A DNA stretch of 64,000 bases, taken from contig CM073321.1 in NCBI GenBank assembly GCA_037043015.1, forward strand, positions 34,698,101-34,762,100, written 5' to 3'. Of the stretch, positions 2,371-54,160 are shown one piece after another. Within the stretch, counting starts at the first letter, position 1. Every line of letters starts with the position of its first letter. The DNA is from Bryum argenteum (Eukaryota > Streptophyta > Bryopsida > Bryales > Bryaceae). Below the pieces are notes generated by a model, which did not search any database, had not been told where the DNA came from, and was given only the letters and a program-made list of their open reading frames with translations. The position numbers and the translations under genes are program-made.

Positions 2371-4330
2371 AGAGAGGATTGATTTAGTGGGTTTCTGCTG
2401 TGATGATGATCACCTATCTGCCATTTTTCTTCCATACTCGGCGATGGACTTTTGTGATGCACTTTGCTTGGGCTTGACCTGCACAAGAATGTGATTGGTC
2501 ATTGATTGGGGAGGTCTGTGAGGAACTACGTTTGCTTGTGAGCATTTGTGGTGTATTATTCAGAGTTTAGTCAATACATATGTACTTTGAATCAGAGGTT
2601 AATGTATACTTTGTTCGAGGCGGAAGCGTGGCCTTTCTTTTAACAATATTAAGCAATCCAGCATAACATGCTGCACCTTACGTGAAATTCAAACATGTAC
2701 GAGCTTCAAGCCATAGCATCAGCATTGAGTCTTGAAAGGAAGTGTTATAAACAATGCACAACAATGAAAGCGAGAATACAAAAATACAAAAAATCATAAG
2801 AAGTCCTGGCTGACTGATTCTTACACAAACTTTCGTCTCACCTTACCTCGATATTCTTCTTCAAATACAACTATCTCCAAGTTCTCAGCAATTGAATCTC
2901 AAAACCGATCTTCAACAACTCTATTTCCCACAATTGTATCTGCACGATCTGATTCAGCATTCTCGTTAGAGGGCAAGCGGGACTTCATACACAGAACGTG
3001 AAGAAGCAAATCAAAGGCTTTAGATAGATTTCAAGTACAATAAACTTGCTAGACTTCAGGGTTAAAATGAGCTTAGAGAAGTTCCACACTTTCGACGAAC
3101 GAATGCACAAAGATTAACAAGCGATTCAACTACAAGTTCCACACTGTCGGTGCACATCGATCCTCCAAAAGCACTTAACCCTAATTTCTCAGCCACACTC
3201 AACACACCAACTGCAAATTGCTCAGCCACAGCTGAACGCACCGAGCAGTGAGCAAATCCTAATTACAAGTGCGCAACTATTTCGCTCCTGAGCTTACATT
3301 CAAAAGTAACAGTTCACAAATTTCGTTACAGTGATAAATCCAGTTCAATCAAGTGAGCAGTGAGAGTACTTGTGAAAAATCCAGTTCAATCAAGTGAGCA
3401 GTGAGGTACCCTAAACATGAGATGTGGGGCTGCCGAGACGATAACCTGCCACCAGCCGTTGCAATCACAATCACCAACCGCCTACCGATCCACAAAAGTA
3501 ACCCGCAAAACCCTACCCTAGACGAACTACGACTGAAATGCGTGCTCCCCTCAGAAATACAGTACAACATCACCAAGCCTCATTCAAAGATTGCCGCCAG
3601 AGCATAAGTGCTAAACCCTACTAAACACGTAAGAAAAAGGACGAACCTTAGTATACTGACGATAAACTTGCAGCCGCGATGAAAAAGCAGAACTGAACAA
3701 GCACCACCGGCGATGCCACGATGAACTACCAGCGCCGGCGATGGCCACGCAAAAGTACCCCCGTAGGACCTCCGCCAAGCAGGACCTCGCCGCTCGCGTT
3801 GATGACCTCGCAGGACCTCGCAGAAGCTCCGGGCGTCGCGCAGAAGTAAACCCTCCGCCACGCAAAAGTAACCTCCTCGCCGCTCTCCGCAGAAGTACTC
3901 CCTCGCCGTTCTCCTAGAATTAAACCTCTTCCGCCAGATCCTCCCCAACCTCCTCCTCGGCGCAAACCCCAACAAACTAAACTACAGTAGAGCGCCCCAA
4001 ACAAAATGGCGGCAAAAGAATTACAAACTCGAGCGCTAAACGACAAAAGAGGGAAACCGCAAAATCCAGCAAGGAATGCAAGCGCTAAACGAGGAATCAG
4101 GCATGCAATCGCAAAACAACAACCACAACGGAGTAGCGAAGGGGATAATGTGTGCGGAATAGTGCGGAGGAGATAAGGGAGTAGTGGGAGCAAATGCGCC
4201 TGTGAGTGGGGGGATGGATTCTGGCTTGTGAGTGGACGGATGGGCACCCTTCTGAAATGTCGGCGGTGGTGGGACATCGGGACTCCATCATCAGCCGCTT
4301 TTCTATGCCCATGCCAATGATCATGGGCAT
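2371..4330. other. Stretch without a supported gene; short duplications
   Basis: No gene could be supported here. A direct repeat of about 28 bp containing CAGTTCAATCAAGTGAGCAG occurs near 3,338 and 3,380. Between 3,700 and 3,960 the DNA is GC-rich, with a loose repeat of CGCAGAAGTA and CGCAAAAGTA. At 4,306-4,327 GCCCATG and CATGGGC form an inverted repeat around TGATCA, just before the DNA turns abruptly AT-rich. The open frames in this stretch have no recognisable domain. Confidence 0.6.
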
Positions 4331-10738: not shown

Positions 10739-11240
10739 ATGGCTGCTTAAGATGTTCAAATGCTTGGTGATTACTCCTTTGATGAGGATGTTGTAGTGCA
10801 ACCGGAGGAGCTGAAAATGTTCCAAACTGTGAAGGTATCCCTCGGCGTCTTTGGGCTACTAAGTTCGTTACCCTTCACGGTGACTACTGTCGGCCTGTAG
10901 CGGAGGACCTATGTCACAGCATCAGTTACGATCTCGTTCTCGGTAGCAACGGTTCACTTGGGCACTCTCGAGTCGCAGTTCAGATCTCGAAGACCCTTGA
11001 TGCCACAGTAGTGCCAGATGAGTAGAGATACTCAGTCAGGGCCTGGCCGTTCGATAAAGTCTTCTATAATGGGGCTAGTCTCAGAGACCATGAGATAAGA
11101 CACGATCATAACTCTCGTGTTGCACTTCTTGCGAGACCTCAGTCATCTCGTAGCGGGCATTACAACAATACAGCTTGGAACCCGCCTCGTCAAACATCCG
11201 TCAAATCCAGAGGATTATTAACTCAGGAGTCTATCAATTC
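10739..11240 (+). pseudogene. DUF7869-like transposon protein, N-terminal half, split by the Mutator-like element
   Basis: The frame opens at ATG 10,739 (MAA, then a stop). It shifts by one base near 10,790-10,830 and continues through LWATKFVTLHGDYCRPVAED and GSLGHSRVAVQISKTLDA to LLTQESINS, where the 18.3-kb insertion begins. In-frame stops follow MAA (TAA) and VVPDE (TAG), and both fit CAA/CAG with C-to-T. The reading frame resumes exactly at 29,593 after the insertion and one TATCAATTC copy are removed. The N-terminal half has no domain I recognise; the family is assigned from the C-terminal half. The ATG lies 9 bases after an acceptor-like TTTTTCAG. Confidence 0.75.
11232..11240. repeat. 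Left 9-bp target-site duplication TATCAATTC
   Basis: Identical to 29,584-29,592. Nine bases is the usual duplication for Mutator-like elements. Confidence 0.88.
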
Positions 11241-12143
11241 GGGGAATGCACGGGTGTGAGCGGAGAGGGGTGAGCGGTAAGCGGTAATTGGCAGAATTTT
11301 TTTTTTTCATGAAAGATTAAGACCCTATTACCACTCATTGCAAAAAAATATTTAAAAGTTTATAGCCCTATTACCATGAAATGGGTGGTTCTGAATTTTT
11401 GAAATGGTCCCTTAGGCAAAAAAGTACCCAAAACCGTGGATATAGGTCCTTTATCGATTTATTTTCATGGTATTGAGGTCATAAATTATCCACATTTGCA
11501 AGTTTAAATAAAAGTTTATTAAATTATGGGCTGGCATCATCATGTGTAACGAATACAATTGAAATCATATACAAAATATAAACCGAAATTTGGGATGGCC
11601 CATATAGGTAATCAATAAGTTTAATTTATCGATATTAAGATTTAGAGACTAATTAGGGTTGACGTCATCAATCTCCTATTACACTTGTCAGAATTATATG
11701 TAAATGCTTCGGTTTATATAATCTGAAATTTAACAATACAGGTCGTCTTTTCGTGTCTCCTTATTAAGTGTACGGAAAGACATTCACGTGGCATTGTAGT
11801 GGTCCGAGTTCGATTCTCGTCGGGCTCGTTAGAGCTTGCACTGCGTTTTAACGCACCTATCCTAAGCTATACAAATACTGGACTATAGCGCCTACCAACA
11901 TTGGCAAAATTCAATTACTCCAATGGAAGATAAAAAAACCCAGACTAAAACTTTTAGTCTGCACTGAGTTTAAAACTTACACATTTAGATACATCAGTGC
12001 ATTCAAAATGGGGGTTCCCAGGCGTGTTCCATCAAAACTAGGGCTGACGTCACCATTACAGGCAACCATGAATTAGATTCCATTATATCCTACCAATTTC
12101 TAAGTGCGTAATTTAAAATCAATAAAGAGAATACAAGATGATA
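11241..12143. other. Left terminal region of the Mutator-like element
   Basis: The left terminal inverted repeat occupies about 11,241-11,290 and contains GTGAGCGG twice. The remainder, up to the 3' end of the methyltransferase gene, is non-coding, with a T run at 11,288-11,298 and no second gene that I can see. Confidence 0.7.
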
Positions 12144-15100
12144 TTACGCATCAATGAACTTTTGTGGCTTCTTTACGACCGGTTTGTCAGAGTCATAATC
12201 CGCGGAAAGGTCCGATTCTCCACTTTCTTCTTAACCGGGAGGACCATTCTTGTATTCCGCTAGTACACCATCAAAGATTTCTTCATCAGGTTCCATAGCG
12301 ATGAGGTGTCGGTTGGAGCGCGCGCAAGCAATCACAGATGCACCTAAAAACTCAGAGACACACGTTAGAAATGCGAAATGTATAAACAAATTCTAACGTA
12401 GTGATTATGGAAACATTACCTGTACTTGCGTTCCAATCGAATACAATACCTCCATCGTCCGTGAGACAATCGACGAAACATTGAATGAAGGAGGGGTCCT
12501 TCTCTCGTGAGCTTCGCCACGGCGTACCGTCCGGACGATAACGCAAGGTTTCTTTCTCAGCAAAGTTACAGAGGTGGTCTTCCTCATCAGGTACAATTGC
12601 CACACCCGCGTATGCGTGTGCCACTTGCCGAGTTTGGAACTTCGAAACATACTCTTTGCGAACATATACTTTGATATGAAAGCAGTGAGTCTGCAAAACA
12701 GAAGTATAGATACATTAATATAGATGCATAGAAGGCAATAACCATGAATTGTGAAATTGGAAACTAGAATAGGGTTCATACCTCTTTCGGTTTGGGTACG
12801 GTAGAGGCCATAGGGAGGGGATTATATCCCCACCAGTCTCGAACAAGACGAAAATCATTCGTATGGGACTCAGAATCGAGAGTACGCTCGATTCTACAAC
12901 ATTTTCGATGCATCAGAAGAATGGCTCCAACGTCTGTCAAATGATACGCGGCAAACACAAGGAGGCTCTCAAAGTAGGTTTTGTCACGCCGGTTCTAGGA
13001 TGGAATTTCTGTTGGAGACACACCCGGTACAAGCAAGTTCTCGGGAGCATCTGCAAAAATGAGATCAATCCCTGGATGCTTGGGCTCATACTCCATCGCC
13101 GAACACGGGTACTTACGGTCTTTGCCAATCTGGGAGACAAGTCAGAAATTAGCTAGTGGCTAATAGATTTACCAGCTTAAAACGTAATTAAGGAGATTAT
13201 AAGTGACAAATGTACGAAATAATACCTTCTTGATGTGCTCGACAATATCTAGGATTTGCGAATCCCATTTTGCAATCTTCGACTGATGAAACAAATCTCC
13301 ACTGTTCCCCTTCTCCAGATACATTGGCAGAGTGACTGATATTTTCGACGACGAGCTGCTACCAATGTGATTGGGTTTCGGAAGAGGGCGTCTGGCGAAT
13401 ATTGGCTGGCTGAGGCGACGTGGGGACTGCTGCGAGTTGTGGTCAACGGTGAATGATTGAGGTGGGGACCCAACATTCGTAAGTCCACCTGTAGAAAGTT
13501 GAGTCAATCTTACACCGCGTCGAATTGTATTGTTTGCGGCTCCCGCTGAAGCCTGAGTCAGATCAACATCTTCAGGCCCTACAATGTCTTCTCCGAGGGG
13601 AGCATTTTCTTCGGATTCTTGCTCAAGATCTACAACAGGCTCTGCAACAGCATTGCGTCGCTTCTTGTTCGCACGAGACTTGGGCACTGCAACTGGTGAA
13701 GAAGGAGAAGAGATAGGATCAGGTGCGACTAGTAAAATGGAGAGGTCGTCATCGTCATCGTCATCAATGTCCATTGGTGCAGAGTCAGCTGGGTTAGAAG
13801 CGAGGTTCCGAAGAAGATGCTTCTCCTCCTTGTGCACGTAGTTGTCGTCGCACTCAAGGAACCATCCACCGGTCGTCAATTGGGAGTTAGTAAACCGCTC
13901 TTGTTGGGCTGTGGAGAAAAAGCTGCGGGGATCATTCGTGACTGAAATGTCCTCGAACTCTATTGGAATGGAGAACGAAGCTAATGCTCCCTTCGCAACG
14001 AGCTCTTGTTTTAAATACCTACAAAAGTGTGAACAAATCAGATTGTATAAATTGAATAAGTTGTACCAAATTTATTAATATTGAAGAGAAAAGTAGAAAC
14101 ATACCGGAATAAAAGTCGCTTAATTGTAACTTTGCCCCCGGTAATCTTTTGAAGATCCGAGCCTTTGGGCTTGCATTAGGACCAAGATAGTTGTTGAATG
14201 CCTTCTCCCACAAGAGCAACCTCCACTTCTCCACATATTCAGATGGCTTCAAGACAACACTAGACCACTCAATGTTGAGGGTTTTGTTGTCAATCAGGTT
14301 TTGCAATTCAGCTTGAAGTGATTGCTCGAGCTGTGGAAAAAGAAAACATGTTAAAGATGAAAATACCCTATGAATTATGACTTTGAAAACACGTAATGAA
14401 AAATTAAGTTACCTGTGCCCAAAAAGATGCGCGATGCAGAAATGCCACCAGAGCTTTATCTTTCATTGGACGTTCATCTGGGAAGCGAAAAGATCGTTGA
14501 ACTTCGTCTGATGAGTTCCACCATTGGAGCCACTTTCCCTTAAAATCGAAGTGAACATTGGTAGTAGCTACCATTTGTAAGCGATCGATTGTCATATCGG
14601 GTTTCAGGTTCTTGCTGTAATGGGAATAAATCTGCACATAAAATTCGTATGTAAGAATCAAGTTCTAAAACATGATTGCGAATAGAGCCATATCAAACAT
14701 GGAAGAGGTGCTTTCTTTACCTCATTTGCAAATACTTTTCCAAGTCTGTTGTTGGCAACTGCGACCATCTTGTCGAAGTTTTTGCCACGTATTGCCTTAA
14801 TTTCTGATTTGATCGCATTATCCATGGCACTCCATACTCCGGGTCCTGTTTGTTTCTCCTTTGGGACGGTGGCGTAGTAATTCGTTTCAGCGTCATCTGA
14901 TACCTTTGCCAATCTCCTCTGTACAGCATATTAAAAGAATTAATACGGTGGACAAAACCAAATACAAAGAATCACATTACGAACACATTCCAGCCAACTT
15001 ACCGCATATAAGAACTTTACAAAAACGTCAAGTGTTACAGGATACCAAGTTTCCTTTTTTGCTTTCGCGTTCTTGCGTATTCTGTAATCCTCTGAGGATA

Positions 15101-16104
15101 TGAGATCCTTGAAATCCTCAAGTTTCAATTTTCCAAACTGCCTCATTCGCTGCAATTTAGCACACAAACCGTCTTCGACATGGTCATGTTCAGTTGACCT
15201 GCCAAACAAAATCAAATATGGGCAACATTGAAGTTCAACAGAATATAAACAAATAAATTTGGAAATTTAGGACAATTACTCACCAATTTATGTCGTTCAT
15301 AGCATCAATAAGGACGTTGCTCTCTCCCCGAGCATCAAGTAGGATACAGTCCACAGAGATGTACCACGAGGGTTCCATCTTATGATACCGCTCTATGTGT
15401 CGCATCCACGCCGTAAGACGGTGGTTGCCTTCGTACACGTAGAAGTACTTGTCACTCAGGTGTCGAAGATCCGAATCAGACTGCAGCGTCTTCTCAAACT
15501 CTTCATTAGCAGATTTCTATAGAGGATTCGTCCACACTGCATTTCCGGCATCGACCATTTTTTCTCTGCCTTTCCTATCGAAGGGAGAAACGTACATGAC
15601 TCGATCGCCCTCGCGATAGCCTTTGTTGAACTCATTCTCCAATTTTCTGACGTCTTGTTCGGAGATAGGTCGAACCTTAGGATAACAAACAAGGCGACAC
15701 AATGGAATCATCATGCGAGGTTTCTTAACAGGTTTGAAACGCAGCCTGTTGATGATCGCAATTGAATCACTCTTGTGAATCATTCGCATCTCATTTGCAC
15801 TCCAGTCTGCGTCTTTGTTTTAGAGGTGAGGGGGCATGTGAACAATCCCGACATTGAAACCTCCCGACAATGGAGTGTCTTCATCTTCAGAATGAGAGAC
15901 GTCTCCATCGTGATCGTGCGTGGGTTGAGGTTGACGGTCAATATCCACATGACTTTCCTCCAGAACTGCGTTGCTCACGTCCAGAGCATTTCTGCCACTG
16001 TCACGTAAGGGTTCATTCTCATCCAGAGATCGAGTTGGTGGAGAATGAAGCGGACGTGGTGTGGCAACGTCATCTTGGACGGATTGGTCTTGAGCTTTGT
16101 TCAT
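12144..16104 (-). pseudogene. ParB-like / N6-N4 DNA methyltransferase-like fusion protein, nine exons
   Basis: Exons (minus): 16104-15284, 15198-15003, 14918-14721, 14631-14413, 14330-14105, 14018-13226, 13129-12782, 12690-12420, 12343-12144. All junctions are GT-AG and phases agree, except that exon 5 lacks one base. The predicted product is about 1,090 residues. Residues ~220-275 carry YVYEGNHRLTAWMRHI, then VDCILLDARG and NVLIDAMNDIN, like a ParB/sulfiredoxin-fold GNHR domain. Exon 6 is an acidic, serine-rich linker (DIDDDDDDD). Exon 7 has DLIFADAPENLLV in the place of methylase motif IV (D/N-P-P-Y/F/W). Exons 8-9 give DPSFIQCFVDCL, GGIVFDWNASTG and ASVIACARSNRHLIAMEPDE, matching the order 'P...L...GDxVLDPFxGSGTT...GRxxIGxExD' of beta-class N6/N4 methylases. 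Stops at about 15,812, 15,521, 12,993 and 12,231 fit CAA/CAG with C-to-T. The DAPE and DWNASTG deviations make catalysis doubtful. Confidence 0.72.
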
Positions 16105-16248
16105 CTAACAATCCAAAAACCAAAATCCAACACAACATAAATAGAATAAGAAGATATCAAAATGACAATGAGATATTGGAAGTACTTTAAAATCTTTTTA
16201 TAATTAAGTATATGATAAACATAAATATCATATAATCGATGGATAAAA

Positions 16249-19200
16249 TTAAGGAGATGGCAACTTTCGGGCAAGTCGTGGAGAACGTCTGGGTGCAAGT
16301 CTAGCTAATTCTTTCTCTTGGATTCGACAATGTTTGGCTTCATTCTTCTTAAGTCGCCGCTTAATCGCAACACGATCGGCGTTTACGAGTGAAGTGTGAC
16401 GGACAGGGGTGAGGGAAGGCGGAGTTTCAGGAACCGAAGACAATGGTATTACTAATCGACGAGACTCCACAGAAGCTAACACTTCGTGTCTAAAAGTGCA
16501 GAGGTCGTTATCTGCATCGGATTCCTCTTCACAAACAACTTCATGTCGCTTTAACGCATCCTGCAATACAATTCAAATCCGTCAGCAACCAATTAAACGT
16601 ATATTAAACAACGAGAATCAGGTTAACGAAAACAATACAAGTACAACTATTGACGATGGTATAGTAAAATTTATCACATTAAGTCATACTTTATGGCCTA
16701 AAGCAAATTCAAGAAGCATAGGTAGTTCGTGTTCGAGCTTCAGGACGTTGCCAGAGACTCAATCCTGACGCTGAGTCTAAGGTCCCATGCCACGCTGTTG
16801 CAAGCACGAGGACCACAACCAAGAAGGAAAGAATTGGAATTTCAAAAAATTGCATGATAAAAAGTCAATCTTCAAACTTCAAAAAGAGAGGATTTTCATA
16901 CACCCCTCCTGCATTTCGTCGAGCGAAGGCGAATAAGCAGCTCCGAAATTCCCACAACAAAGGCGAGGTTGATGCCCCCGACATCATCAGAGCGCAGCAT
17001 CCAGTCGCATGTGACCAGCCTCGAGCGACCACCAGTATGGTGGCATTCTCCACACTTCCACGAGCCCAGGCAAGCAAAGGCCCGCAGCCACTCTGTTGCG
17101 AGCGAAAGGGAGCCTCGAGGTGGCCACAGCGAAGTCTGATCCCGGGCATGATGCTCACAAGGACCACAGCCAAGAAGGGAAGAATGGGAATTTCAAAAAA
17201 TTGCATGATAAAAAGTCAATTTTCAAACTTAAAAAAAAGAGGATTTGCATACGCCCCCCCAGCCTTTCGTCGACGAAAGGCTAACAAGCAGATAAGAAAT
17301 CCAAGCAATATCGGCACCACCATGGTGGCATTCTCCGCACTTCTCACGAGCACAGTCAAAGCAGGGCCCGCAGCCTCTCCGTTGCGAGCAAAAAGAAGCC
17401 TCGAGGTGGCCACAGCGAAGTTCGAACCCGGGCATGATGCTCACGAGGTCCACAACCAAGAACGGAGGAATGGGAATTTCAAAAAATTGCAAGAACAAAA
17501 GGCAATCTTTAAACTTCAAAAAAAGAGGGTTTTCATACACCCCTCCAACATTTCGTCGAGGAAAGGCTAACAAGCAGCTTAGAAATTCCCACAACAAAGG
17601 CGAGCTTGATGCCCCCGACATCATTAGAGCGCAGCATCAAGTCGCATGTGACCAGCCTCGAGCGACCACCACCATGGTGGCATTCTCCAAACTTCTACGA
17701 GCCTAGACAAGCAAGACCCGCAGCCACTCTGATGGGAGCGAAAGGGAGCCTCGAGGTGGCCACAGCGAAGTCTGATCCCGGGCATGATGCTCACAAGGAC
17801 CACAAACAACAAGGGAGGATTCAACAATTTGGAAAGGAACATGAACAAAAGCCAGATTCCATACTCAAGAACGTGAGGTTCTGTCTACGCCCCCCCAGCC
17901 TTTCGTCGACGAAAGGCTAACAAGCAGATAAGAAATCCAAGCAATATCGGCACCACCATGGTGGCATTCTCCACACTTCTCACGAGCACAGGCAAGGCAG
18001 GGCCCGCAGCCACTTCGTTGCGAGCAAAAAGGAGCCTCGAGGTGGCCACAGCGAAGTTCGAACCCGGGCATGATGCTCACGAGGTCCACAGCCAAGAACG
18101 GAGGGATGGGAATTTCAAAAAATTGCATGAACAAAAGGCAATCTTTAAACTTCAAAGAAAGAGGATTTTCATACACCCCTCCCGCATTTCGTCGAGAAAA
18201 GGCGAACAAGCAGCTCCGAAATTCCCACAACAAAGGCGAGTTTGATGCCCCCGACATCATCAGAGCGCAGCATCCAGTCGCATGTGACCAGCCTCGAGCG
18301 AGCACCACCATGGTGGCATTCTCCAAACTTCCACGAGCCCAGACAAGCAAGACCCGCAGCCACTCTGATGCGAGCGAAAGGGAGCCTCGAGGTGGCCATA
18401 GCCAAGTCTGAACCCGGTCATGATGCTCAGGAGGACCACTGCCAAATAGGGAAGATTCAAAAGTTCAAAAAGGAGCATGAACAAAAGCCAAATTCCATAC
18501 TCAAAAACGGGAGGTTATGTCTACGCCTCCTAGCATTTCGACGGTGAAAGGCTAAACAACAGCAAAATAATTTCCACAACAACGGCGAAGACGATGCCCC
18601 AACATCATCAGAGCGCAGACCTTCACTCGCATCTGGACAGTCCAAAATTCCTGTATGGTGGCATTCTACTACTGGCATTAAACTACACACCCCGCCGCGA
18701 GAGGCTAGCATGCAGGTGACTAATACGAGCATATCACACAGAATCACAAATCTACAGTCTGGCACGAAGGGCACGACCAACGCCAAAGCTAAAAAACCCA
18801 GGATGTTGAATGAGTTTCTGAGCATCACTGGCCGATGTTAGTTGGATCCTACCTCTGTGCCTCAGGAAGCACCCACGCCGACATACATATGAACACCCTG
18901 TACTTCAAATACATAATCTCTCCTACAGAAATCTAGATAGAATCCGAAGAAGAAGAACTGATTGAGTACAAGTATCGGATTGAGTAGATCATGAAGCACG
19001 GATTCTTACCTTGAAGCCCCTCGCAAACCACGCCTCCTTTTCTGCACGAGTCTTGAATTTTACTCCAGGAGCGTATTGAAGTGCGTATTCCCTGTAAAAC
19101 TCAGAAAAAAGGCTTGACGAAGAATCAGAACTCACATTCTCCAACTCCTTCTCCACGTCCTCTCCTTCGCGCCGCATTGTGATCTCCTCTTCTTGCCGCA

Positions 19201-21126
19201 TTGTGATCTCCTCTTCAACGCCCAGGTTTGCCACTGTAGCTCCTTCCTTCAAACCAAACTGAACATTGACAAGAAAGGAGTTGTTGATAGGAACAGGTAC
19301 GCCATATTAGTTCATCGAAAGCATCTTCACTATTTGCATCCTTTCTATTGTGGTAACTACATTCCAAATTCTCACTCTTTCTGTCAGGCATCTCTCCTGA
19401 CAGCTTTTCAAAACTGTCGCTTGCCAAGCCTATCTCAAGCGGATCTATCCTCATCGGCGGTTTCTCTTTCTAGGGTTTTGCGCCGGCGCACAAAGGAGGA
19501 CCTCCTGCTTCCTAATTTTCACAGGATCACTTGCCGATCGTGCCGGCATCACCTGGCTATTCTAAGGTACGCGCCGCAGGAGGAGCTCAGCGGACAGACA
19601 CGAAGCGGACGGAGAGGGAGCGGCGATGGAAGAAGGTACGCGCGGTCAAGCGGGTAACACTTGTGCAGGGTATACATGGGCCCGGGGCTGCTGCTATGGG
19701 GCGGGGCTGCTGCCATGGGGCAGGGGCTGTTGCTCTGGGGCCGGGGCTGCTGCCATGAGGCCGGGGCTGCTGCCATGGGGCCGGGGCTGCTGCCATTGAG
19801 CCGGGGCTGCTGCCATGGGGCCGGGGCTGCTGCCATGGGGCCGGGGCTGCTGCCATGGGGTCAGGGCCATACTGCAGCCATGGAGCCGGGGCTTCATACC
19901 CCGAAACCCCATGGCCGCGCTGCTGCCGGGGCCGGGGCTTTATAACCCGGTACCCAACGGCGCTGCTGCTGGGGCCGGGGGTTTATACCCTGGTCGGGGT
20001 CGGCCGGGCCAGAGGATTATACCCTGGCCGGGGGTTTATACCCTGGTGTTACTTGCCCGGGGCCTTATACCCTGGTTTTACTTACCCGGGGCTTCCTGTG
20101 CCAGGGCATTATACCTCGATACCCCGATACCTCCAATACCCCAATACCCCGATACCCCATTATTTACCGATACCAAGGATGTCTCCATGTATACCCGTGC
20201 CTACTAGGGGTTATATCCTTCAATCCTTTGTATTATCATTCTGGGCCTCTTTTGTTCAATGGACTTTACACTTGTACCGCATTAAAATCTGACATGATTT
20301 ATAATGATCAAAACTAATCCAACATATATTCAGTATTACGTCACAGTTTTTTTACTGAACCAATACTTAATAATCTACATTGGAGTACTGTGCAAACATA
20401 ATCACATATCTAATCTATGGATGTGAATGCTAAAATGTGCCGAGACTCCTTCATGACACTTAAGAAAAACGTCATGTCATTTACCTCCTCCTCTAAAACA
20501 CGATCAATGGTTTCTTCGTCTTCTTCAACATCTACCAACTTCTTCTTTTGGTCCATCCTCTCCTCGTTCTCAGAACTGTCCTTGAAATCTTTCTCCGTAC
20601 CGTCAAAACTTAAATCATCTATCTCATTGTCCTTGAGACGTTCATTGGCATCACCCTAGTAGACAAACATTCAACTCATTTAATCAAAGTGCAATAATTT
20701 AATAGCAAAATCTCAATAATACTACACTACCTGCTTCTCGGAATCCCGTGTAACCTCATCACCTCCTATGTGATAATATAGAGATTCGCTTGATGTCGAT
20801 CCACTTCTACCGCACTCCTGCTCTTCTATAAATCTATTGCATTCGTTCCCATCTTCAACAATGTCTTTCTCGTTAATCTTAATCATTGTGTCAAGATTGA
20901 TCGACCGCATTTTCAGATTCCGCCTATACTCGGGCCCAACTTCATCATCGTTCAGATCATAATCAGCAGAGCCTCCCTCATCTCCACTCGACCTAGACGC
21001 ACCCACCTTTCGCAATGCACTTCGTTTGCGCGCTTTTGTATTACTAAAACGAGTACCCCCTCTCTTCTTCTTTTTCTTAGGCACACTCTCATTAGATCTC
21101 TTAGACCCCATGCTCACCGCGTCCAT
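16249..21126 (-). CDS. Four-exon nuclear-type protein of unknown function, carried by the Mutator-like element
   Basis: Exons (minus): 21126-20731, 20655-20485, 19258-19010, 16560-16249. All three introns are GT-AG and phase 0, and the joined frame of about 375 codons has no stop. The protein starts MDAVSMGSKRSNES, then KKKKKRGG (nuclear-localisation-like). It continues acidic (DEGGSADYDLNDDEVGPEY; VDVEEDEETID), then EFYREYALQYAPGVKF, and ends basic with RRSPRLARKLPSP. I recognise no catalytic domain. Introns 2 and 3 hold large tandem arrays. The 145-bp AT-rich gap to the next ATG (16,104) ends in TTGTTAG directly before that ATG. The gap could therefore be an intron, making this the N-terminal part of the ParB-methyltransferase protein, although the TAA at 16,249 argues for two genes. 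Confidence 0.6.
16800..18560. repeat. 634-bp higher-order tandem repeat with embedded palindromes
   Basis: Two related monomers alternate. Type A (about 16,853, 17,487, 18,121) carries CGACATCATCAGAGCGCAGC. Type B (about 17,206, 17,840) carries ATCCAAGCAATATCGGCACC. A plus B is about 634 bp, present about 2.5-3 times; the segment CTCGAGGTGGCCACAGCGAA recurs in every monomer. Type B holds a perfect 22-bp palindrome (half site AGCCTTTCGTC) at 17,261-17,282 and 17,897-17,918, and a second palindrome, CCACCATGGTGG. The array lies inside intron 3 of the four-exon gene, and its open frames on both strands are by-products of the repetition. Confidence 0.85.
19680..20180. repeat. 20-bp G-rich minisatellite and degenerate derivatives
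   Basis: About nine copies of the unit GCCGGGGCTGCTGCCATGGG occupy 19,681-19,862. They are followed by looser units built on GGGGTTTATACCCTGGT (19,920-20,100) and then by ATACCCCGA-type repeats (20,110-20,165). Runs of four Gs at 20-bp intervals could form quadruplexes on the plus strand. The array lies inside intron 2 of the four-exon minus-strand gene. Confidence 0.9.
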
Positions 21127-21638
21127 AACGTCAAAACTCTAAACAACAGCACACAGATCGGACCGTCTGATGACCTTACCAGCACAAACAGAACAAACAA
21201 AAGAAAGGTCCATCTCATTGTCCTACCCCTATTTAAACAAAGTTTTCAAGCCGCCCCCTAACCTAATTTGCGCAGTTCATCCTAAATTATCGCAACAACT
21301 ATGATGGCTCATATTCTGCCAATTGTGACAGTCTCTGACATGAGATGCTAATCTATTTATTTGAATTTGCATACAAATGCTCTGACAGTGACGGCCGCCG
21401 TTACTTTTCCAATTTTGAGACCGTCAACACTTGCACATTAATGACACTAATTACAATTGCTTAATGGTATACAGTATTTACTCTCCATTATGGTAATTGT
21501 CTGATTTATTCACGCTCCTATCCTTACTTACTTCATTACCAGTTCCTACTACCAATTTTCTCTTATAAACTGCATCATACATAGACTGTATCATTTTCTC
21601 ACATCTACAGTCGATGCTCGTTGGTCCTCTCGCACATC
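21127..21638. promoter_or_regulatory. Divergent promoter region of the Mutator-like element
   Basis: This 512-bp interval separates the minus-strand gene (ATG at 21,126) from the plus-strand transposase (ATG at 21,639). A TATA-like TTATAAAC lies at about 21,563, 76 bp before the transposase ATG. On the minus strand a GTTTAAATAGG box (about 21,228-21,238) lies about 100 bp before the other ATG. Both assignments rest on sequence likeness and spacing only. Confidence 0.5.
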
Positions 21639-22550
21639 ATGGCGTCCTCATCCTCTGAACCCACAGCTGCAGACATCGTTGAGATTGTGTCACACGGAGC
21701 ACTTGTTCCAATTTGCATGTCCGTAGGGCTTCAAGGTGTCGTAGAGATCACTGCATCGTGGCTTGGCATTCGATTCGGCTACAATGCATCTTCCCTGTGG
21801 TTAGAGAGAGAAGTTCTAGAACCTGATACTAATCATCTTCAGTACTCCATGGTCGTAGATTCAATCATCCTAGAGAATAATACTACAACCTGGAAGCTTA
21901 GACCTGGAAAGTAGTGCCTCTACGGCTTGACGGAGTCCGTCATGAACGCCTCAACAGTTCTCCTGACCCCACGTAGTTCTTTTACTATCTCCACGGCTGC
22001 TCCAACTCTTGCTCGTGTCAAAGTCGAACCAGGTCTGGAAGTCACCATTGACATTTCGGATTCATCAGAAGACGAGAAGAAGTCTCCTCTGCAACCATGT
22101 CGTCTGTCCTCTGATATTCCATTGCCACCTCCTGTTAGGGATAACTATCTAAGAGTCACGCCTACTTCTTTACTTTCATCGCAAATTGTAAAACTCAAAA
22201 AAATTCTTCCATCCCTCTTCAATCTCGCTAGAATGCCAAGTAGCAAGACTCTCCTCTTAAAAATAGATTTCAAAACCATTCGCACTGTCAACGTATCTTT
22301 CTTGCTTCCGTCCTTCGATGGCGATGTACTCTTCATATTTCCGCCCACTCTTCCGTCTGCAACTCACAAGGTCGCGAGGTCCATGGAGGGGATGGATAAA
22401 CGGTACGACGGCCATGTGTGGACTAGGACGATGACTACCAACATCAGCAATACGCAAGGGTTGTCTTTCCGATACTCAAACTGTGTAGGACATCTAGAGT
22501 GCCACAACCCGAACTGCGACTTCTTGCAACAATCTGATCGAGTGGCTGGA

Positions 22551-25500
22551 CACTATAAGAAACCTGCGTTTTTAATGATGTTGTAAATGATGTCTAAAAA
22601 GACATCGTAGACATTAATTTGGATGTCTTATAGACGATAAGACATCCTAGACATGACAGATGTCTAAGCAGACGTCTAAAAAGACAGGAAAATGTCTTAA
22701 GATCGAAGATGTCTTAAGGTAATTTTGGAACGGTAAAAAGTGTGTCACGTGGGTGCCACGTAGATGACACATCAGCTTGAAGTGGACGGGCAGTGCCACA
22801 TTGGGATGAAATTCATCATGATGTGGAATTTTACATGGTCCCACGAAAGATGACATGGCGGCGCCAGAATCCCACGTGGACCCGAGAAAATCCGACGTGG
22901 CACCCGGGAAAATCTGACGTGGCACCGGGGAAAATCCGACGTGGCACCCGGGAATATCCGACGTGGCATGCGGGAAAAGTTGACGTGGACTTGGGAAAAT
23001 GACATGGCATGCCACGTCAGCATATTGCGGAGGTTTTATGCTCCTATCATGATAGTTTTAGACATCAGTTAAGACGACTTAAATGTCTTGCAAAACATCT
23101 TAGATGTTGTACAAGATGTCTCGCAAGACGTATGCAATGTCTTACAAAATATCTTAGAAGACAATTTTTATGTCTTATAGTCTTATAAGATGTTTCCAGT
23201 GCGTAGAATGATGTTTACGTTGATGTCCTTATTAAGTTTGTGATGTTTGCTCGGATGTTTGTAGCGACATCCCCTCGAACATCGATGTGAACGTTTTGTG
23301 TTAAACATGATGTTTGCAACAGTGTTATTATTGATGTTTTTTAGGCATATGAAAGGACATCTAGGATGACATTTTTAGATGTTTATATAGTCATCAGATC
23401 CGTAATCCACAGACGTCTCACATAACATCAACTGTAAACATTGTCACATCAAAAAGTATGAGTCAAACATATATTGCTTAGGTCATTAAAACCTCAGATA
23501 ACACAAACTAGAGTATTTACTAATACGCCTGTCAACAACTACGATATACTACGCACCCACAATCTGAACTCCGTAAGTCCCTCCAATTCCATCGTTGTCG
23601 ATACCCGTATGGTCATGTGCATGTCCCGCCGCTACACATATTCAATAAGCCAATATCAACTGCATTTAAAGAAGGGTTTGTAAAGGTAAATTTTTTTTGA
23701 TTTAATTCCATTTAATTGCACTACCTAGGTTGAGATGGTTTACTTCCTAACCTCAAGATATCGACACAGTTAGACATTCTTGCAAACATCTGCTTAGACA
23801 TTTCTTCAGACATCCTTCTAGACATCATTAAAAACAACGTTATAGACATCTATACATACATCTGTTCCACTCACCTACAAGCACGCATGTCGCTTCGCGG
23901 CCTCAGATCGAGCTCGCTGCCCCGACCCCTTATGTCCCACCTTTCAAAACAAAATTTCATCAACAAATTTAGACATCTTCATAGACATGCTCTAAGACAT
24001 CTTGCAGACATCATCGTAGACATCTTCTACAACAAATCAAATACTACAAGTACTAGGGTTTCCTTCACAACAAATCAAATTCTACAAGTCCTAGGGTTTC
24101 TTGTACAAGATGCTTTTGAAATCCAGTACCTCTTAAGTAGCAAATCTTAGCCACATGAAGAAGGAAACCTACTCTTGAGAGCTATTGGATTCCTACAAAT
24201 ACTATTCTCTTATTGTAGTTAACAATCATTCTGAAACTGAATAGAAACAATTTCGAAATCCTCTATACTTTAAACACAAACTCTATGGAAAAACTAAGGC
24301 AAAAATGAGCTTTGTAATTCCATTTGAAGATCTCATGACCTAACTATGGCGGCGGCAACAAACCCTAGCCACATGAAGAAGCAAACCTTAGCCTCTACAC
24401 TCCAAATACTAACTCTTTGAAAAAATGAAGGCAAAAATGAGCTTCGTGCGGCCTCTAATTCTACTTATAGGTCTCATCACCTAACTATGGCGGCGGCAGC
24501 AAACCCTAGCCGCCTCTGTTCATCCATTGAAGTCAATGAAAATCATCCCTGTAGATGGTTCTGGATGCTGTCATAGATGTCATCTTCGACATCTTCATAA
24601 ACATCATGTTAGACATTTTCATGAACGTCATCTTAGACATCCCTGCAGACATTATCATAAACATCTGATGACATTTTCAGGGTTTCAATCACAACATATT
24701 AACTATAAAAGGTCTTTTGTTTTCCCTCACAAAAAATAAAATACCAGATGCTTTAAAGTTCTTTCCACAACAAAGCACATATTGTAAGTCTTAGAGTTTC
24801 TTCCACAACAAATCAAATAATCTTTATTGATAGAGAAAGTGTGGAATTACAATCATGAGACTATTTATAGTCTTCCATGGTCATAGGCTCTCTTTTAAAC
24901 TCTTACCTACCTTTTATTTCTATCCTAACTAACTTTCCAACTAACTTTCTTAATACTAATTCTATTCTAGAATTTTGTCTCCTAAACTGTATTAAATAGC
25001 TACTTTCATAAATTCATATTTCTTGTAAATTTGCTTTAATTTGTATAATATTGGTTGTTAATGATAGAGTAATGTATAGTCTTGCCATTAGACTATAATA
25101 ATCTAATCTATAAGTAATCAATAATATTTAATTCCTTCTTGAAGTAAGCCAAAAAGCACTGTTTATTGTTTTTATGTTCTTTTTATATTTTCTTTAAGTA
25201 TTTGAGGATTACCCCAATCAGAGACCCGCGCCAATGGAGGACAAGCAGTAAGAGAAAAAGTTGATATTATTCTAAAAAGACTCTTAAGTACTGCCGCTTT
25301 TTAGTAAATGACGTCTAGGAGGATGTCGTGCAAAACATCTTCATAGACATCCAAGTAGATGTCTACGCGGACATTCATGCATGATTGTAGTTATGGTAAG
25401 TTGGACATCGTGTTAGACATCCGACTAGATGTTGAATGACTTGTCAACTGGTCGAACGTGGAGTTTTTGTTGCCATGTAGATAAAGCGCTGTAAATAACT

Positions 25501-26224
25501 TTATTAATCTCTGTCCACGTGTTTTTTGAGGATTAAATATCCACGAAATTACTTTTACTTTTTTTTTTGGCACCATTGTTATCTTATAGATATTATATTT
25601 TATATATAATATTTTTTAAATATTTAAATATTTTTAAATCATAAAAATTACATAATTATAATATTCTAATTTATTTGAATATAATAAAAATTTACAAAAT
25701 ATATTTTTTATTGAAATATAATTATATATTTTAATATTTTAAAAAAAAAAATAGACCAATGAAAAAATAGTGAGAATAGCCTGAAATTAGTATTTTCAGT
25801 ATTGCCACGTCACATAATGATTTAGCCAAAAAAAAAAAAAAAAAAAAAAAAAGAAAAAAAAACTAAAGTCTGATGTTTTTTTTTCTACTTTTGTAAACCG
25901 CTACCCATTCACCTACTCTTTTAACATTCGAAATGCTTTTTACCCCGTCCTTTGAAGAAATTTTGGTCGTTTTTACCTTCTTTGGTCCAAAATCCCTTGC
26001 CAACGTGGCAGTTTGATGTCTATCAAGATGTCTTCAAAGACATCCATGTCTTCACCAACATCTTTTTGTTTGGTGATGTCTTCATGCCCCCCCAATCCAA
26101 AATGTGTCCGTTAGACGTACAAACATCCTCCCGTCTTCGAAGACATCTTTTAAGACAGTAAGACATCACAAAATACATTAGACATTACACAAGACATCAC
26201 AAAAAACAGGGTTTTCTTATAGTG
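22551..26224. mobile_element. Non-autonomous CACTA element, 3,674 bp
   Basis: The element begins CACTATAAGAAA at 22,551 and ends TTTCTTATAGTG at 26,224. It is flanked on both sides by GGA (22,548-22,550 and 26,225-26,227), the 3-bp duplication typical of CACTA (En/Spm) elements. The termini match over about 23 bp with small differences. Both subterminal regions carry dozens of short GATGTCT/AGACATC motifs in both orientations, as is usual for CACTA transposase-binding regions. No transposase frame is visible inside. The interior holds a 22-bp ACGTGG array (22,862-22,990), a duplicated ACTAGGGTTTC-type segment (24,000-24,500) and a poly-A run at about 25,828-25,851. Confidence 0.93.
22862..22990. 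repeat. 22-bp tandem repeat rich in ACGTGG boxes
   Basis: Five to six units of the form AAAATCCGACGTGGCACCCG plus two bases, period 22. Nearby are further CACGTG and CCACGTCA boxes (22,745-22,760 and 23,013-23,021). ACGT cores are the usual targets of plant bZIP and bHLH proteins; whether they act here is unknown. Confidence 0.85.
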
Positions 26225-29100
26225 GGAGTGAACGATGTGGAGTTTGGAGGCATTACAAAAGACCCCTTCCTTGTAGGCGGATCGCCCCCGCCCACCTTGA
26301 TGTTGGTCTGTGAGCTTTGCAAACAACCTCTTGTTTGTGTTGCGCCTTGTTCTGCGAAAATCTTTTACGTGTTTGGAGAAGATTGTCAAGAGCGTGCATG
26401 TGTCCATATAGGAACACACGAACATCCTGTCAAAGTCAGAGATTATAGATGTGTACGGAAAAAAAATGATGAGTTATTAGAAGAGCATGTTGACCATAAC
26501 CCTCAAGCAACCGTTTCCAAAATAGTTATGGAAACCAGTAAAGACTTGTTAGGTAACTTACTTCTCCGTGACGAAGGTGACCCCGATACCGGCAATCTTT
26601 CTCTTCAGCAGCTCGAACCAGTCTTTGAACAATGCAAAGAGTTAAAGTCTCCCAGCATGCGCAATCGTATCTACACTTTCAAGTACTTGCGTAGGTATCG
26701 CATTCTCCATGGGATCACAAAGCTCAGAGGTCTCAACAACTGGGCATATGTGCAACGCAACATGTTCCCTGGCCAAAGCGACGAATCCGAGAAAGTCTTC
26801 ATCTTCAAGATGTCGGAGGTCGGCCCCGGTAGCGGTGTTGATCTCGTTCGCCGTATGCAGCCTGGAGGAAATCTCTCCCACGCATGGATGATGTTTGACC
26901 ATGTCAAACGCGTTACGGATTGGACCACCATGGCCTGCCACGTGTACGACTCACGTTACCAACGCATTCTAACCATTGCATGCTGTGATTTCCAGTCAGA
27001 GGACAAAGATGCTCAACTCGTCTTCTGAAAGAACCTTAATCATGTGATGGCAAGGAACGGAGTACCTAAGCCGCAGTTCCAAGGATTTATGGCTAATAGT
27101 GCCCAAGCCAATTGGAACGCTGTGCGCATCATCTACGGCTCTGGAAACCCTGCTGTCCCCATGGAAGGCCGCGAACGCACATGTTATTTCCATTGGACTC
27201 AGTCTCTTGAGAAACATACGAAACAATACATTGTGCCCAAATTGCAAGGCCAACACCGGATTCTGTGTAAGCAGTACAAGGATGCGCGCACCATGGAAGA
27301 GGCTGAGACCCGATATTGGGCTATAAGAGCGTGGTGGGCATCCTCGAAGGCGACCTCCGAAGTTGGTTTAGAACACTTAGGTCATTGGCTTGCGTACTGG
27401 CACTTCAGATACAGTCAATGGGGTGGATTTATGGAACTAGTAAGTATACAATTTCTTTGCGATATCTTTGCTTATAACATGCTCTACAGTAGCTTCTAGA
27501 ATGTTATGACAGTACGAAAGAAATTGACAGTTATTGTTTTAATAATATATATTATTAGTTGATTTTTTTTGTGAATTTATATACTTCCAATCTGTATTAA
27601 GTTCAAATCTAAATTATTAATCAAAGCCTATTACGTTTCTACATTGCAGGAAAAAAAGTATTCGGCAGAAGAACTCGCAGAGATGCCTTCATGTAATCTT
27701 GCGGAGTCAATCCACAACAAGTGGCTGCAAGCGTCTGGCAATAAGGGTAGGGATCTCTACGTCGCAGCCGTTGACGACTACGTTCGGGCCTTCCTCCAAG
27801 TGGTCGGCTACCATCAATTCAACAAAGGCGGTGCAAGTGGTTCTGGACCATCCGTAGAAGAACTTCGTCAGCGTCTTTATACTGCTCAACGTCGGGCTAA
27901 TCGATCCCGCAATCCATCTTGTCTCAACAAGGCAGTTATGGACTTCCCTGAAGCTGAAGCTTATTGTACGCGTGACGCCCACTTGGAGGGGGCAGAGATT
28001 TTTGGTTCCAGGAAACGTAAGGCTGATGTTCCCATTGGTGCTGAAGATGAATCTCATCGACCTGACACCGTGAGTTACTCACGTCCTCGAATAGGGAGAA
28101 GAGTCACACGAGCTCTTGCTGAGAATCTCAGTCATATTTACGAAGAAGATGAAGTTCAGGAGCAACCGATGGAACCCCCGCTTCTCCAAAACCCAGTATT
28201 CAGCGCGTCATTGCTATCCAAGAGACGAGAGTGAATGAGCGTCTATGGCACATTGCTCGTTTGAAGGAATCCTCATCCAAGGCTTGTTGGGGTATTATGG
28301 CTAAGACCAGGAAGAAATGCGAATCCCGCATTGTCCAAAACGGGAAGGCGACCGCAGCTCCAACTTACACCGGAGTATGGCAACGTCCTCAAGAAGGTCC
28401 AAAAAAAACTGATCAGTTTTTCTTTTGTCCAGACGACATTGAGCGTTGTGTGAAAGGCAGTCGTCGTAAATGGATTGAGCCGTTCTCTCGGAAACAAGGA
28501 CGCCCGCCTATTCCCTCTATTTGGCCCGTGAAGATTGGGACTAATCTCACACTGGATGAAATAGAAGCGTTGGAGAATGCGGGTTTTCGGCTCCCACAAA
28601 AGGAACGCCTTCCTCTCAACCGCACATTCAATACTTCTGCGCCACCGAGAGACTTGTCACATATTCCTGTGCCGGACAAGGCTGATCTGTACCCCAAATC
28701 ACGCAAGTCTAAAGTTCTTCGACGCATCTAGGCTGTGACTCCGAAGCACATGAAGAACATTGACTCAGCTCGTGCCATGGAGGCAAAAATACTCGAGGTG
28801 ACCATGATACCACAACCTGGTTTTGGATGTATCGTTGCTTTGGAGTCGAATTCAGAGTCTATCTATAAACTATCTCTAAGTGAGAACCCTGAGTGTTCTT
28901 GCCCGGTGTTCAAAAAAACCATAACTACTTTAGGACGAAAAGGCGAACCGTATAGACATTGCAAGCACCTATATTTTGTGTTGGTATTGGTATGCAAATT
29001 TGATATTGATAGAGACCTCTTCATCCACGCGCCCACCCTTAGTTTCAACGAGGTGAAAAACATTCTAGAGAGGGGAATCCTAGACCAAGTTAGAGAGTAG

Positions 29101-29583
29101 ACTACCTCAAGGTCACATTACGTAAACCAACATCCACATCTACCCATTCTACATGTTATCCTTGTAATCGTGTATTTCACACGTTATCTATTTTGATTTC
29201 AGTGTTTTAATATAATCAATAAATGTATCCGTATTTACACAAAATTATGATTTGCTATACAAACTTGGACTGTTGATTTCACAGTTATAATATACTAGTC
29301 TACTCTGTAAAATTCGTAAATGTCTCTTCATGTTTGAAGAACGTGGTTTAAGTCCACCAAATTTCAGAAAATTTAGCCTTATCTCCACTGGTTTAGGAGC
29401 ACAAAATCACGGTAATAAGTCAAGAATATTCGAATACTCTTGAGAATATTTCAGGAAAAAATAGTAAAATAATATTTTTAGAAATTTTTTTACTAAAAAT
29501 ACCAATTCAGCGCTCAAAATCCTGAAACTTGATGGCTCAACGCTCATCGCTCACCGCTCTCCGCTCACACCGTAGCTACGTCC
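29101..29583. other. Right terminal region of the Mutator-like element
   Basis: Non-coding 3' flank of the transposase, AT-rich, ending in the right terminal inverted repeat at about 29,535-29,583 (GCTCACCGCTCTCCGCTCAC). AAT-rich sequence at 29,212-29,225 may serve for polyadenylation. Confidence 0.65.
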
Positions 29584-29592
29584 TATCAATTC
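29584..29592. repeat. Right 9-bp target-site duplication TATCAATTC
   Basis: Identical to 11,232-11,240. The host frame resumes at 29,593. Confidence 0.88.
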
Positions 29593-31955: not shown

Positions 31956-33470
31956 CAAATTGTACATTTCAGTTGTTTAAATATGGCTTACACACCATAA
32001 CTTAATGTGACCAATACTCAACATTTGGAATTATTTCACATTAGAAATTCGACGCAATAGTCTTTTAAAGTCCATTTACAAAATACTACCCATGAAGATT
32101 AAAAAGTATAAAAATATGCCAAAAATGTTTAAGAATGTACTACAACAGGCAAAGGGCAATATTACTTTGACGGCTGGCAAAATGTTAATTGCAATTTGGG
32201 AAATATTATAGAATATGGTTTGTATTTAAAAGGATATGCATGATATTAGTAAAATGTCTCTCAAAATATGAAGGTTACCATGTAAATTTGCTTTAAGAAA
32301 GTGAAGTGTGTGTACTATATATTACGTTACACAAGCATAATTTGCAATAAGTTTCCTATATAGGTTTTCTTAAGTAACCTGTATAAAGCAAAGAAATATG
32401 TAAGACTAGCAATAAATGTATAAGGCTTTTCATAATTTTTAGTTCTTGGAAATCTGAAATAGCTCGTTCATCAACCATTTTGTATATCCACTTGGAATGA
32501 TTTTAACTGAAAGTCTTTTTTTTACACATCCTATTACCTATATTCTATATACTAATTATTTATTGTCTTTACAATAATAAAAATACATTAGAGAAATTTC
32601 AACAGAAGTATTTACATCATTTACATTTTGAGAATATTATTTACATCACTCACACTTCAAGAATAGAAATCAAATTGACCATAATTTTAAGAAAGTAGTT
32701 ACATCACTAACCTTTGCAGTAAAATATATACATGACCCACCTTCCGAGAAAAGTATTTGTATCAAGCACCTTTCGAGGAGAGTATTTGCATCACCCTTAT
32801 CTTGAGAGTTGATCTTCAATTTTGTATATAAATACTCTCATGTAGCACAACTCTCTTCTGTGTCAAAGTCTATGTTGGTCACATTTTGGATACAACAATT
32901 ATTTTGAAATAGGTTAATCCGTTTCCTGTTGTTTTTCTTTTTCTTTTTCATTGGTACTTATATTTGTAAAGAATTTCTATGCTTTTCATCTTTGTGCTTT
33001 TAGATTTTCTATGTGACGTCATCAAAATGCACGCATCTTTTCACACTAATTCATATATTGGTACTTATTTTCATTCCCTTTTGGTTTAGCAAGTTATGAG
33101 AATGTAGAAGTTTTAGGGTTTAGGGTTTAGATTTGAATCATGATAGAGTAGACATCATGCATTCTATTAATGGTGTATAAACTTGTGAATCTCAAGTTCT
33201 CCATGTGCAAATTTTTATCATCATGGGTTTAGATAATGATCATTTAAGGACACAAATTTATTATTTTTAGGAGTTAGTGTTTGTTAGGTGTATAGTCAAA
33301 TGAGGATTTTGTGAATCATGTAGAATTATAACATCTAAAAGTCAAACTAACCTATGTTAAATTATTACGTCTGAAATTTGTTTAGTAATGCGTTTGTTAT
33401 GTTAATTAGTATTGTTTTGTAATATTTGTTTAGTTTTGACCGGTTTAGCCGGTTTAGGCCTTATGGGTAC
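30690..33470. other. AT-rich intergenic stretch without a gene
   Basis: Decayed 3' sequence of the upstream gene may reach about 30,880. Beyond that the DNA is AT-rich with short frames only. Two adjacent AGGGTTTAG telomere-type units occur near 33,113-33,130. Confidence 0.65.
31917..31954. repeat. (TA)n microsatellite
   Basis: About 18 TA units. Confidence 0.95.
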
Positions 33471-54036: not shown

Positions 54037-54160
54037 GGACGTCTGTCCAGGACCGTCCGGACGTCCGTCCAGGACCGTCCGGACGTCCGTCCAGGACCGT
54101 CCGGACGTCCGTCCAGGACCGTCCGGACGTCCGTCCAGGACCGTCCGGACGTCCGTCCGG
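54037..54160. repeat. 22-bp tandem repeat, about five and a half copies
   Basis: Unit GGACGTCCGTCCAGGACCGT plus CC, period 22, nearly identical copies. GGACGTCC is itself palindromic. The array abuts the GC-rich block at 54,236. Confidence 0.92.

Follow-up and report, generated by a model that had tools for sequence, protein, structure and literature searches.

We analysed a 64,000-nt stretch of the Bryum argenteum genome (contig CM073321.1; hereafter the window), which contains a complete DNA transposon at positions 11241-29583. The element carries a nine-exon gene on the minus strand (16104-12144; hereafter the accessory gene), a divergently oriented transposase-like gene and, between these two, a small minus-strand gene (gene B) whose second intron holds an array of palindromic sites (dyads). 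The part of the accessory protein encoded by exons 7-9 resembles a DNA amino-methyltransferase which has likely lost catalysis, and the protein may instead bind the dyads and protect the element from silencing. In the following, W denotes the window's own copy of the element, L002-L068 are loci fetched from the host genome and C1, C2, C4, C6, C7 and C9 are contigs of the same genome. No published description of such an element was found in the open-access literature searched.

The accessory gene and its copies

The exons of the accessory gene in the window are as follows.

15284-16104, minus strand: exon 1, stretch of ParB/Srx-like motifs, ParB identity unproven; premature stops at 15820-15822 and 15517-15519
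15003-15198, minus strand: exon 2, from the GT-AG exon model
14721-14918, minus strand: exon 3, from the GT-AG exon model
14413-14631, minus strand: exon 4, from the GT-AG exon model
14105-14330, minus strand: exon 5, frameshifted by a 10-bp deficit relative to seven other copies
13226-14018, minus strand: exon 6, linker with an acidic run, LSIL and a basic stretch
12782-13129, minus strand: exon 7, methyltransferase motif IV position with ADAPEN in place of DPPY; one premature stop
12420-12690, minus strand: exon 8, up to motif I (DWNASTG)
12144-12343, minus strand: exon 9, remainder of the motif I/II region; one premature stop

The first-pass annotation of this sequence had described nine exons joined by GT-AG sites and the motifs EGNHRL, DLIFADAPEN, GGIVFDWNASTG and ARSNRHLIAMEPDE; the splice sites are borne out on the minus strand and all of the motifs are present in the window gene. 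Its claim that the phase is consistent apart from one deleted base does not stand. The accessory gene is real and its window copy is dead: exon 1 has two premature stops and exons 7 and 9 have one each, four in all, and a 10-bp deletion leaves exon 5 at 226 nt, as compared to 236 nt in the seven other copies.

The exon model was compared across eight copies, the window and seven others, and carries over to all seven, in which 111 of the 112 inner splice sites are AG/GT; the sole exception is the exon-5 acceptor of L034. The joined exons run without a premature stop in three of the seven (L033, L036 and L037, hereafter the open copies). The frame of L036 closes at a stop and those of L033 and L037 extend beyond the aligned end, giving proteins of ~1,090-1,115 amino acids. 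The ratio of nonsynonymous to synonymous substitution rates (dN/dS) is 0.10-0.12 over ~1,100 codons in the three pairs of open copies, which indicates purifying selection. By part, it is 0.04 for exon 1 and 0.09 for exons 7-9, each value coming from one pair with dS saturated in the others. A tblastn search of the host genome with exon 1 gave at least 150 scored matches (1179 first-look candidates), i.e. at least 149 relatives besides the window copy, at 83-94% identity and mostly without stops; exon 8 likewise gave at least 150 matches (894 first-look candidates). L049 was considered as an intronless copy and ruled out, as introns and a stop are present in it.

In exon 6 of all eight copies, [LIV]SIL comes directly after an acidic run, an arrangement which we take to resemble a SUMO-interaction motif. 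The basic stretch adjoining it could be a nuclear localisation signal. In the copy L037, the stretch encoded by exons 2-5 (window 15198-14105) has, over its residues 34-188, a weak match to phrog_6451 'primosomal protein' (expectation value, E, 0.0045).

The methyltransferase-like domain and exon 1

Exons 7-9 had been annotated as methyltransferase-like with a permuted motif order, and this assignment to a beta-class amino-methyltransferase-like domain is supported by profile comparison. A profile built from the three open copies aligned by hhalign with three phage methyltransferases at a probability of 97.3 over 193 columns, and tblastn against 50,697 phage records found DNA methyltransferases at E 3e-4 with 92% of the domain covered. 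The Pfam family N6_N4_Mtase matches all three open copies (best E 2.1e-4), with 16.6 bits for the window gene and 18.8 bits for the first intact copy, both under the curated cut-off of 26.7. Motif IV leads and motif I comes last, and no profile match of exons 7-9 to an unrelated family turned up. The domain shares the permuted order and domain-wide profile similarity with the phage and bacterial beta-class N6/N4 amino-methyltransferases (PF01555), and differs from them in the loss of DPPY and FxGxG, in the fusion of ~820 further residues, in the nine exons and in being borne by a eukaryotic transposon.

The tetrad at motif IV reads [DN][AVS]PE in all eight copies (DAPE in five; NAPE, DVPE and DSPE once each), and the catalytic [DNS]PP[YFW] motif is found in none of the eight copies read. 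Similarly, the S-adenosylmethionine (SAM) motif FxGxG occurs in 0/8 copies, where motif I is DW[SN][AP]STG throughout. It could be asked whether the protein nevertheless functions as a DNA methyltransferase and places N6-methyladenine (6mA) or N4-methylcytosine (4mC) at the dyads of the element. The fold similarity, the permuted motif order and the conservation of the domain speak for this, and palindromic sites are typical targets of methyltransferases. However, DPPY and FxGxG are degenerate in all eight copies, and in the bdelloid rotifer enzyme N4CMT the mutation of SPPY to APPA ends activity, as described in the report on that enzyme (PMC8885841). Because of the degenerate motifs IV and I in eight copies and this precedent, catalysis has likely been lost in the accessory protein; a working methyltransferase appears quite improbable, and the earlier suggestion that the transposon uses the protein to modify its own DNA is made unlikely by the same degeneracy.

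N4CMT is also a parallel in setting, being a bacterial-type amino-methyltransferase domain in a eukaryote that is tied to transposons and tandem repeats. According to the same report (PMC8885841), it is active, belongs to the host, contains SPPY and a chromodomain and marks transposons, whereas here the gene belongs to the transposon and its motif is degenerate.

The intact paralogue with DPPY that the first-pass annotation had proposed to look for did not emerge. Searched exon by exon, PF01555 matches just two loci in the genome, L050 (C4:20498341) and L051 (C7:9878472), which are distant paralogues of the methyltransferase half reading DTPF and TASTG (DLTASTGAS). These lie on two chromosomes and are mutually very alike, and no significant exon 1 match was obtained in the 3.2-kb stretch read. 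Although they have DTPF, they are without the middle glycine of motif I, which again argues against a working enzyme. As to a prokaryotic or viral donor, no relative was found in viral or genome contigs by a scan seeded with short exact peptides, which reaches close relatives only; the closest sequences obtained, with 22-25% identity, belong to generic phage methyltransferases.

Exon 1 had been labelled as a ParB-like domain. It shows the order VRPISEQDVRKLENEF, strand, YFYVYEGNHRLTAW, strand, which we take to be the order expected of ParB/Srx. The profile search on the translated exons proposed along with that label gave no ParB match in the Pfam scan, nor did exon 1 give one in the NCBIfam scan. 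PF02195 has no match at E <= 0.001 in the host genome, while the control search was positive in 10/14 genomes. Alignment of exon 1 by hhalign with six plasmid and phage ParB proteins of the SopB/P1 kind reached a probability of 0.11 and a score of 12.3, with at least 8 of 100 column-shuffled controls scoring higher. The AlphaFold2 model of exon 1 is of low confidence (predicted local distance difference test, pLDDT, 53; predicted template modelling score, pTM, 0.47), and Foldseek with this model returned no ParB among the best 50 of 203 rows. A weak match was obtained to phrog_1033 'ParB-like partition protein' in PHROG (E 0.014). The label is favoured by nothing beyond the motif order and this one weak PHROG match, and the ParB identity of exon 1 is an unproven, motif-level possibility.

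It has to be considered in this context that the protein might act in a ParB/parS-like manner, loading at the dyads and spreading, so that element copies are clustered or retained. The dyad arrays beside the gene, the GNHR box, the strand/helix order in the low-confidence model and the phrog_1033 match are in line with it. Against it are the unmatched PF02195, the failed hhalign alignment and the Foldseek result, and partition is unnecessary for a chromosomal transposon. We regard this possibility as highly improbable.

Dyad arrays in the intron of gene B

Gene B and its array have the following parts in the window.

20722-21126, minus strand: gene B first exon, from the ATG; conserved island, 3' boundary approximate
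19010-19168, minus strand: gene B exon 2; conserved island with donor AAG/GTAAG, 5' boundary approximate
16249-16560, minus strand: gene B last exon, acceptor TTGCAG
16805-18650: tandem array within the second intron of gene B, units spaced alternately by ~286 and ~350 bp
17261-17282: perfect 22-bp dyad AGCCTTTCGTCGACGAAAGGCT in the array
17897-17918: perfect 22-bp dyad AGCCTTTCGTCGACGAAAGGCT in the array
17547-17568: decayed dyad with 3 mismatches to the pattern

Each array unit contains a dyad of ~22 bp (AGNCTTNCGTCNACGNANGNCT). The units differ in length from copy to copy (~190, 234, 286/350 and 400 bp) and one dyad is repeated per array, namely AGCCTTTCGTCGACGAAAGGCT in W, CAGACTTGCGTCGACGCAAGTCTG in L034, a 34-bp perfect palindrome in the C9 copy and CAGACTTTCGTCCACGAAGGTCTG in L035. 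BLASTN of the L034 array against the arrays of W, C9 and L035 gave no match of at least 60 bp at E 1e-4. Among seven long-flank copies picked irrespective of the dyad, six contain it, L037 being the exception. In the array of L037 (reverse-complement positions 2384-3793) a repeated AACGGCGGCACCGCA is seen instead, and this diverged subfamily may have switched to another target motif. Of the short loci L002-L031 (30 in number, four coinciding with elements of the long-flank set), 20 have a dyad within 1.5 kb upstream and none has one within 1.5 kb downstream.

In the genome as a whole, the pattern AGNCTTNCGTCNACGNANGNCTGG has 218 and 167 matches on the two strands (385) and the reversed pattern has none on either; the number of distinct sites is below 385, since each perfect dyad contributes one match per strand. 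The 100 places listed correspond to 81 sites in 41 clusters, all on C1 among the matches listed. When these were compared with gene lists holding the best 150 matches each, 18 of the 41 clusters had a listed gene match at a distance of at most 20 kb. Random placement predicts 5.3 such clusters, and the highest number in 2000 draws was 14. A listed exon 1 is present within 25 kb of eight clusters, and in seven of these the dyads precede it by 1.4-3.2 kb on the upstream side. Six of the clusters that lack a listed neighbour were fetched (L045-L048, L067 and L068); in 6/6 the accessory gene is present together with gene B's last exon, with the dyads upstream of both. Exon 2 and the last exon of gene B were both located in six dyad-bearing elements (W, L035, L045, L046, L047 and L068), and in all six these two exons flank the dyads; L045-L047 and L068 had been chosen for carrying dyads.

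The symmetry of the sites was assessed in 33 elements by choosing sites on their left half only, with 5000 shuffles and with copies treated as independent of ancestry. A site was obtained in 24 elements, two of which (L011 and L014) have sites unlike real dyads. The most variable pair, 3/20, is complementary in 24/24 (A-T 17, C-G 5, G-C 1, T-A 1), a result reached in none of the shuffles, also when only the 14 distinct site types are used. Pair 7/16 is complementary in 96% (16/5000 shuffles).

Such sites could serve autoregulation only, as an operator or intronic enhancer which controls gene B or the accessory gene and leaves chromatin silencing unaffected. The intronic position between divergent genes is in line with this. 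However, the array of L032 is longer than 4 kb and contains up to 19 dyads or near-dyads, which exceeds a simple operator, and autoregulation alone seems rather unlikely to us.

The transposon and a possible anti-silencing role

The remaining parts of the element are listed below.

11241-29583: complete DNA transposon, ~18,343 bp, with terminal inverted repeats (TIRs), target-site duplication (TSD) and copies elsewhere
11232-11240: left TSD TATCAATTC, exact match at 29584-29592
29584-29592: right TSD TATCAATTC, identical to the left one
11241-11285, plus strand: left TIR of GAGCGGT-type 7-mers
29539-29583, minus strand: right TIR, mirror of the left one
21639-22547, plus strand: transposase-like gene, 5' part, from tblastn of the C9-copy protein
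26224-27457, plus strand: transposase-like gene, middle part, with a region resembling ADSAQANW, an in-frame stop (last base 27028) and CYFH
27635-29091, plus strand: transposase-like gene, 3' part, with NLAESIHNKW and a SWIM-like CSC..CKH
22551-26223: nested CACTA-like insertion (CACTATAAGAAA.../...TTTCTTATAGTG; 3-bp TSD GGA) which interrupts the transposase-like gene

The earlier proposal that a eukaryotic transposon carries the accessory gene is substantiated by the TIRs, the TSD and the divergent transposase-like gene. Homology between copies stops at the 7-mer-rich terminal repeat (GAGCGGT) beside 11241. The TSD would be 10 bp long (CTATCAATTC) if 11231 is included, and 9 bp agrees with the TIR starts of the C2 and C7 copies. 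C9 holds a second complete copy of 15,147 bp with a TSD of its own. Altogether, TIRs with a 9-10-bp TSD are present in four of the six elements tested at both ends (W, C9, C2 and C7); the C6 copy and one C1 copy have no TIR with TSD at the coordinates fetched. On C1, 22 of the 63 accessory-gene copies compared have a listed transposase-like match within 25 kb, and the nearest such partner is divergent in 18 pairs, on the same strand in three and convergent in one.

The CYFH of the transposase-like protein is presumably the C(2)H motif of Mutator-like element (MULE) transposases, and its D/D/E residues are likewise presumed. The protein is compatible with a MULE because of these features, the SWIM-like CxC..CxH and the length of the TSD; MULE TSDs measure 8-11 bp (PMC6446971), and the presence of TIRs is a further shared feature. 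Unlike MULEs, the TIRs here are made of 7-mer repeats and the transposase-like protein matched no transposase profile in the Pfam scan, with SWIM reaching just E 0.15-0.48. On these sequence features the element is a MULE-like DNA transposon of which the accessory gene is a part.

Two observations concern the distribution of the element. A transposase-like match 100% identical to that of the window over 138 amino acids is located ~47 kb away on the opposite strand (G000:C1:34773319-34773732), which we read as a recent local copy or duplication. C1 makes up 44.1 of 258.8 Mb and holds 63/150 exon-1 and 82/150 exon-8 matches among those listed; it is possibly a repeat-rich or sex chromosome, and the ranking is biased towards C1 because the query itself comes from it.

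The divergent pairing with the transposase-like gene raises the possibility that the accessory protein is a transposition cofactor, whose binding to the array unites transposase, ends and array or directs insertion. Additional open reading frames are present in several MULEs (PMC6446971). The dyads are, however, intronic and not terminal, and the TIRs bear different 7-mer repeats. We consider a cofactor role unlikely, if less so than the other alternatives.

The layout of the element is reminiscent of VANDAL21 (Hiun) of Arabidopsis, which encodes VANA, VANB and VANC. As stated in two reports (PMC5735166, PMC10398659), VANC21 binds YAGTATTAY and causes methylation loss, and this motif forms fast-changing tandem repeats that lie upstream of VANA and inside VANB and VANC introns. 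The two systems share a transposase accompanied by further genes in the element (PMC5735166, PMC10398659), short arrayed motifs in introns or noncoding tandem repeats (PMC5735166; targeting by the protein would have to be assumed here) and motif types that vary between subfamilies (PMC5735166, PMC10398659). They differ in the methyltransferase-like domain of the accessory protein and in the site, a ~22-bp dyad here as compared to the directional 8-9-bp motifs of VANC. The element is not a VANDAL/VANC member by the tested feature because neither DUF1985 nor DUF287 is matched, and it may work like VANDAL/VANC at best by analogy. Because of the VANDAL-like layout together with the dyad array, an anti-silencing role is better motivated than before, and opposition to host silencing, which had been suggested alongside self-modification, is plausible.

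We therefore propose, as a reading whose chances we put a little short of even, that a catalytically dead methyltransferase-fold protein binds the dyads as a dimer and shields the element from silencing. In this fold the catalytic and SAM-binding motifs are decayed, whereas selection has been maintained on the remainder of the protein. The dimer would act as a sequence-specific reader of the ~22-bp dyad in the gene B intron array, and its loading there would keep the noncoding core of the element free of silencing marks. A core free of silencing would in turn let the divergent genes stay expressed, as VANC does for VANDAL in Arabidopsis.

Several observations weigh against this proposal. The dyads could instead be bound by the transposase or by the product of gene B. 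The diverged open copy L037 has an array without such a dyad, 10 of the 30 short loci have no dyad within 1.5 kb, and one of the eight clusters near a listed exon 1 sits 8.3 kb downstream. The symmetry is incomplete, as the central pair 11/12 (46% complementary) and pair 5/18 (54%, compared to 43% in shuffled sites; 744/5000) are asymmetric and pair 7/16 loses significance with the 14 distinct site types (361/5000). No VANC domain was detected, as piecewise Pfam scans covering exons 1-9 gave no DUF1985 or DUF287. Finally, the observed/expected CpG ratio is 0.73-0.88 in the arrays and 0.94-1.00 in the gene; since the array ratio is not above that of the gene, the sequence bears no mutational sign of a protection specific to the arrays.

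To our knowledge, VANC is the sole transposon-encoded, sequence-specific anti-silencing protein of plants. If the proposal is true, an unrelated protein in a like genomic layout would suggest that the anti-silencing strategy evolves repeatedly, and the upkeep of a methyltransferase fold without catalytic motifs in a high-copy transposon would be explained. Epigenome editing would in that case also gain a DNA-binding protein whose target, a ~22-bp dyad, is defined. More broadly, and with slightly less assurance than for the proposed role itself, the element might represent a second independent origin of anti-silencing in plant transposons, in which a prokaryote-derived methyltransferase that lost catalysis reads the palindromic arrays of its element, with sites and protein co-diverging between subfamilies.

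Outside the transposon, short interstitial TTTAGGG repeats of the plant telomere type are present at 33112-33125 and 61224-61266 of the window, and a near-perfect 22-bp tandem repeat of 5.8 copies at 54031-54158 adjoins a GC-rich stretch with long chance open reading frames.

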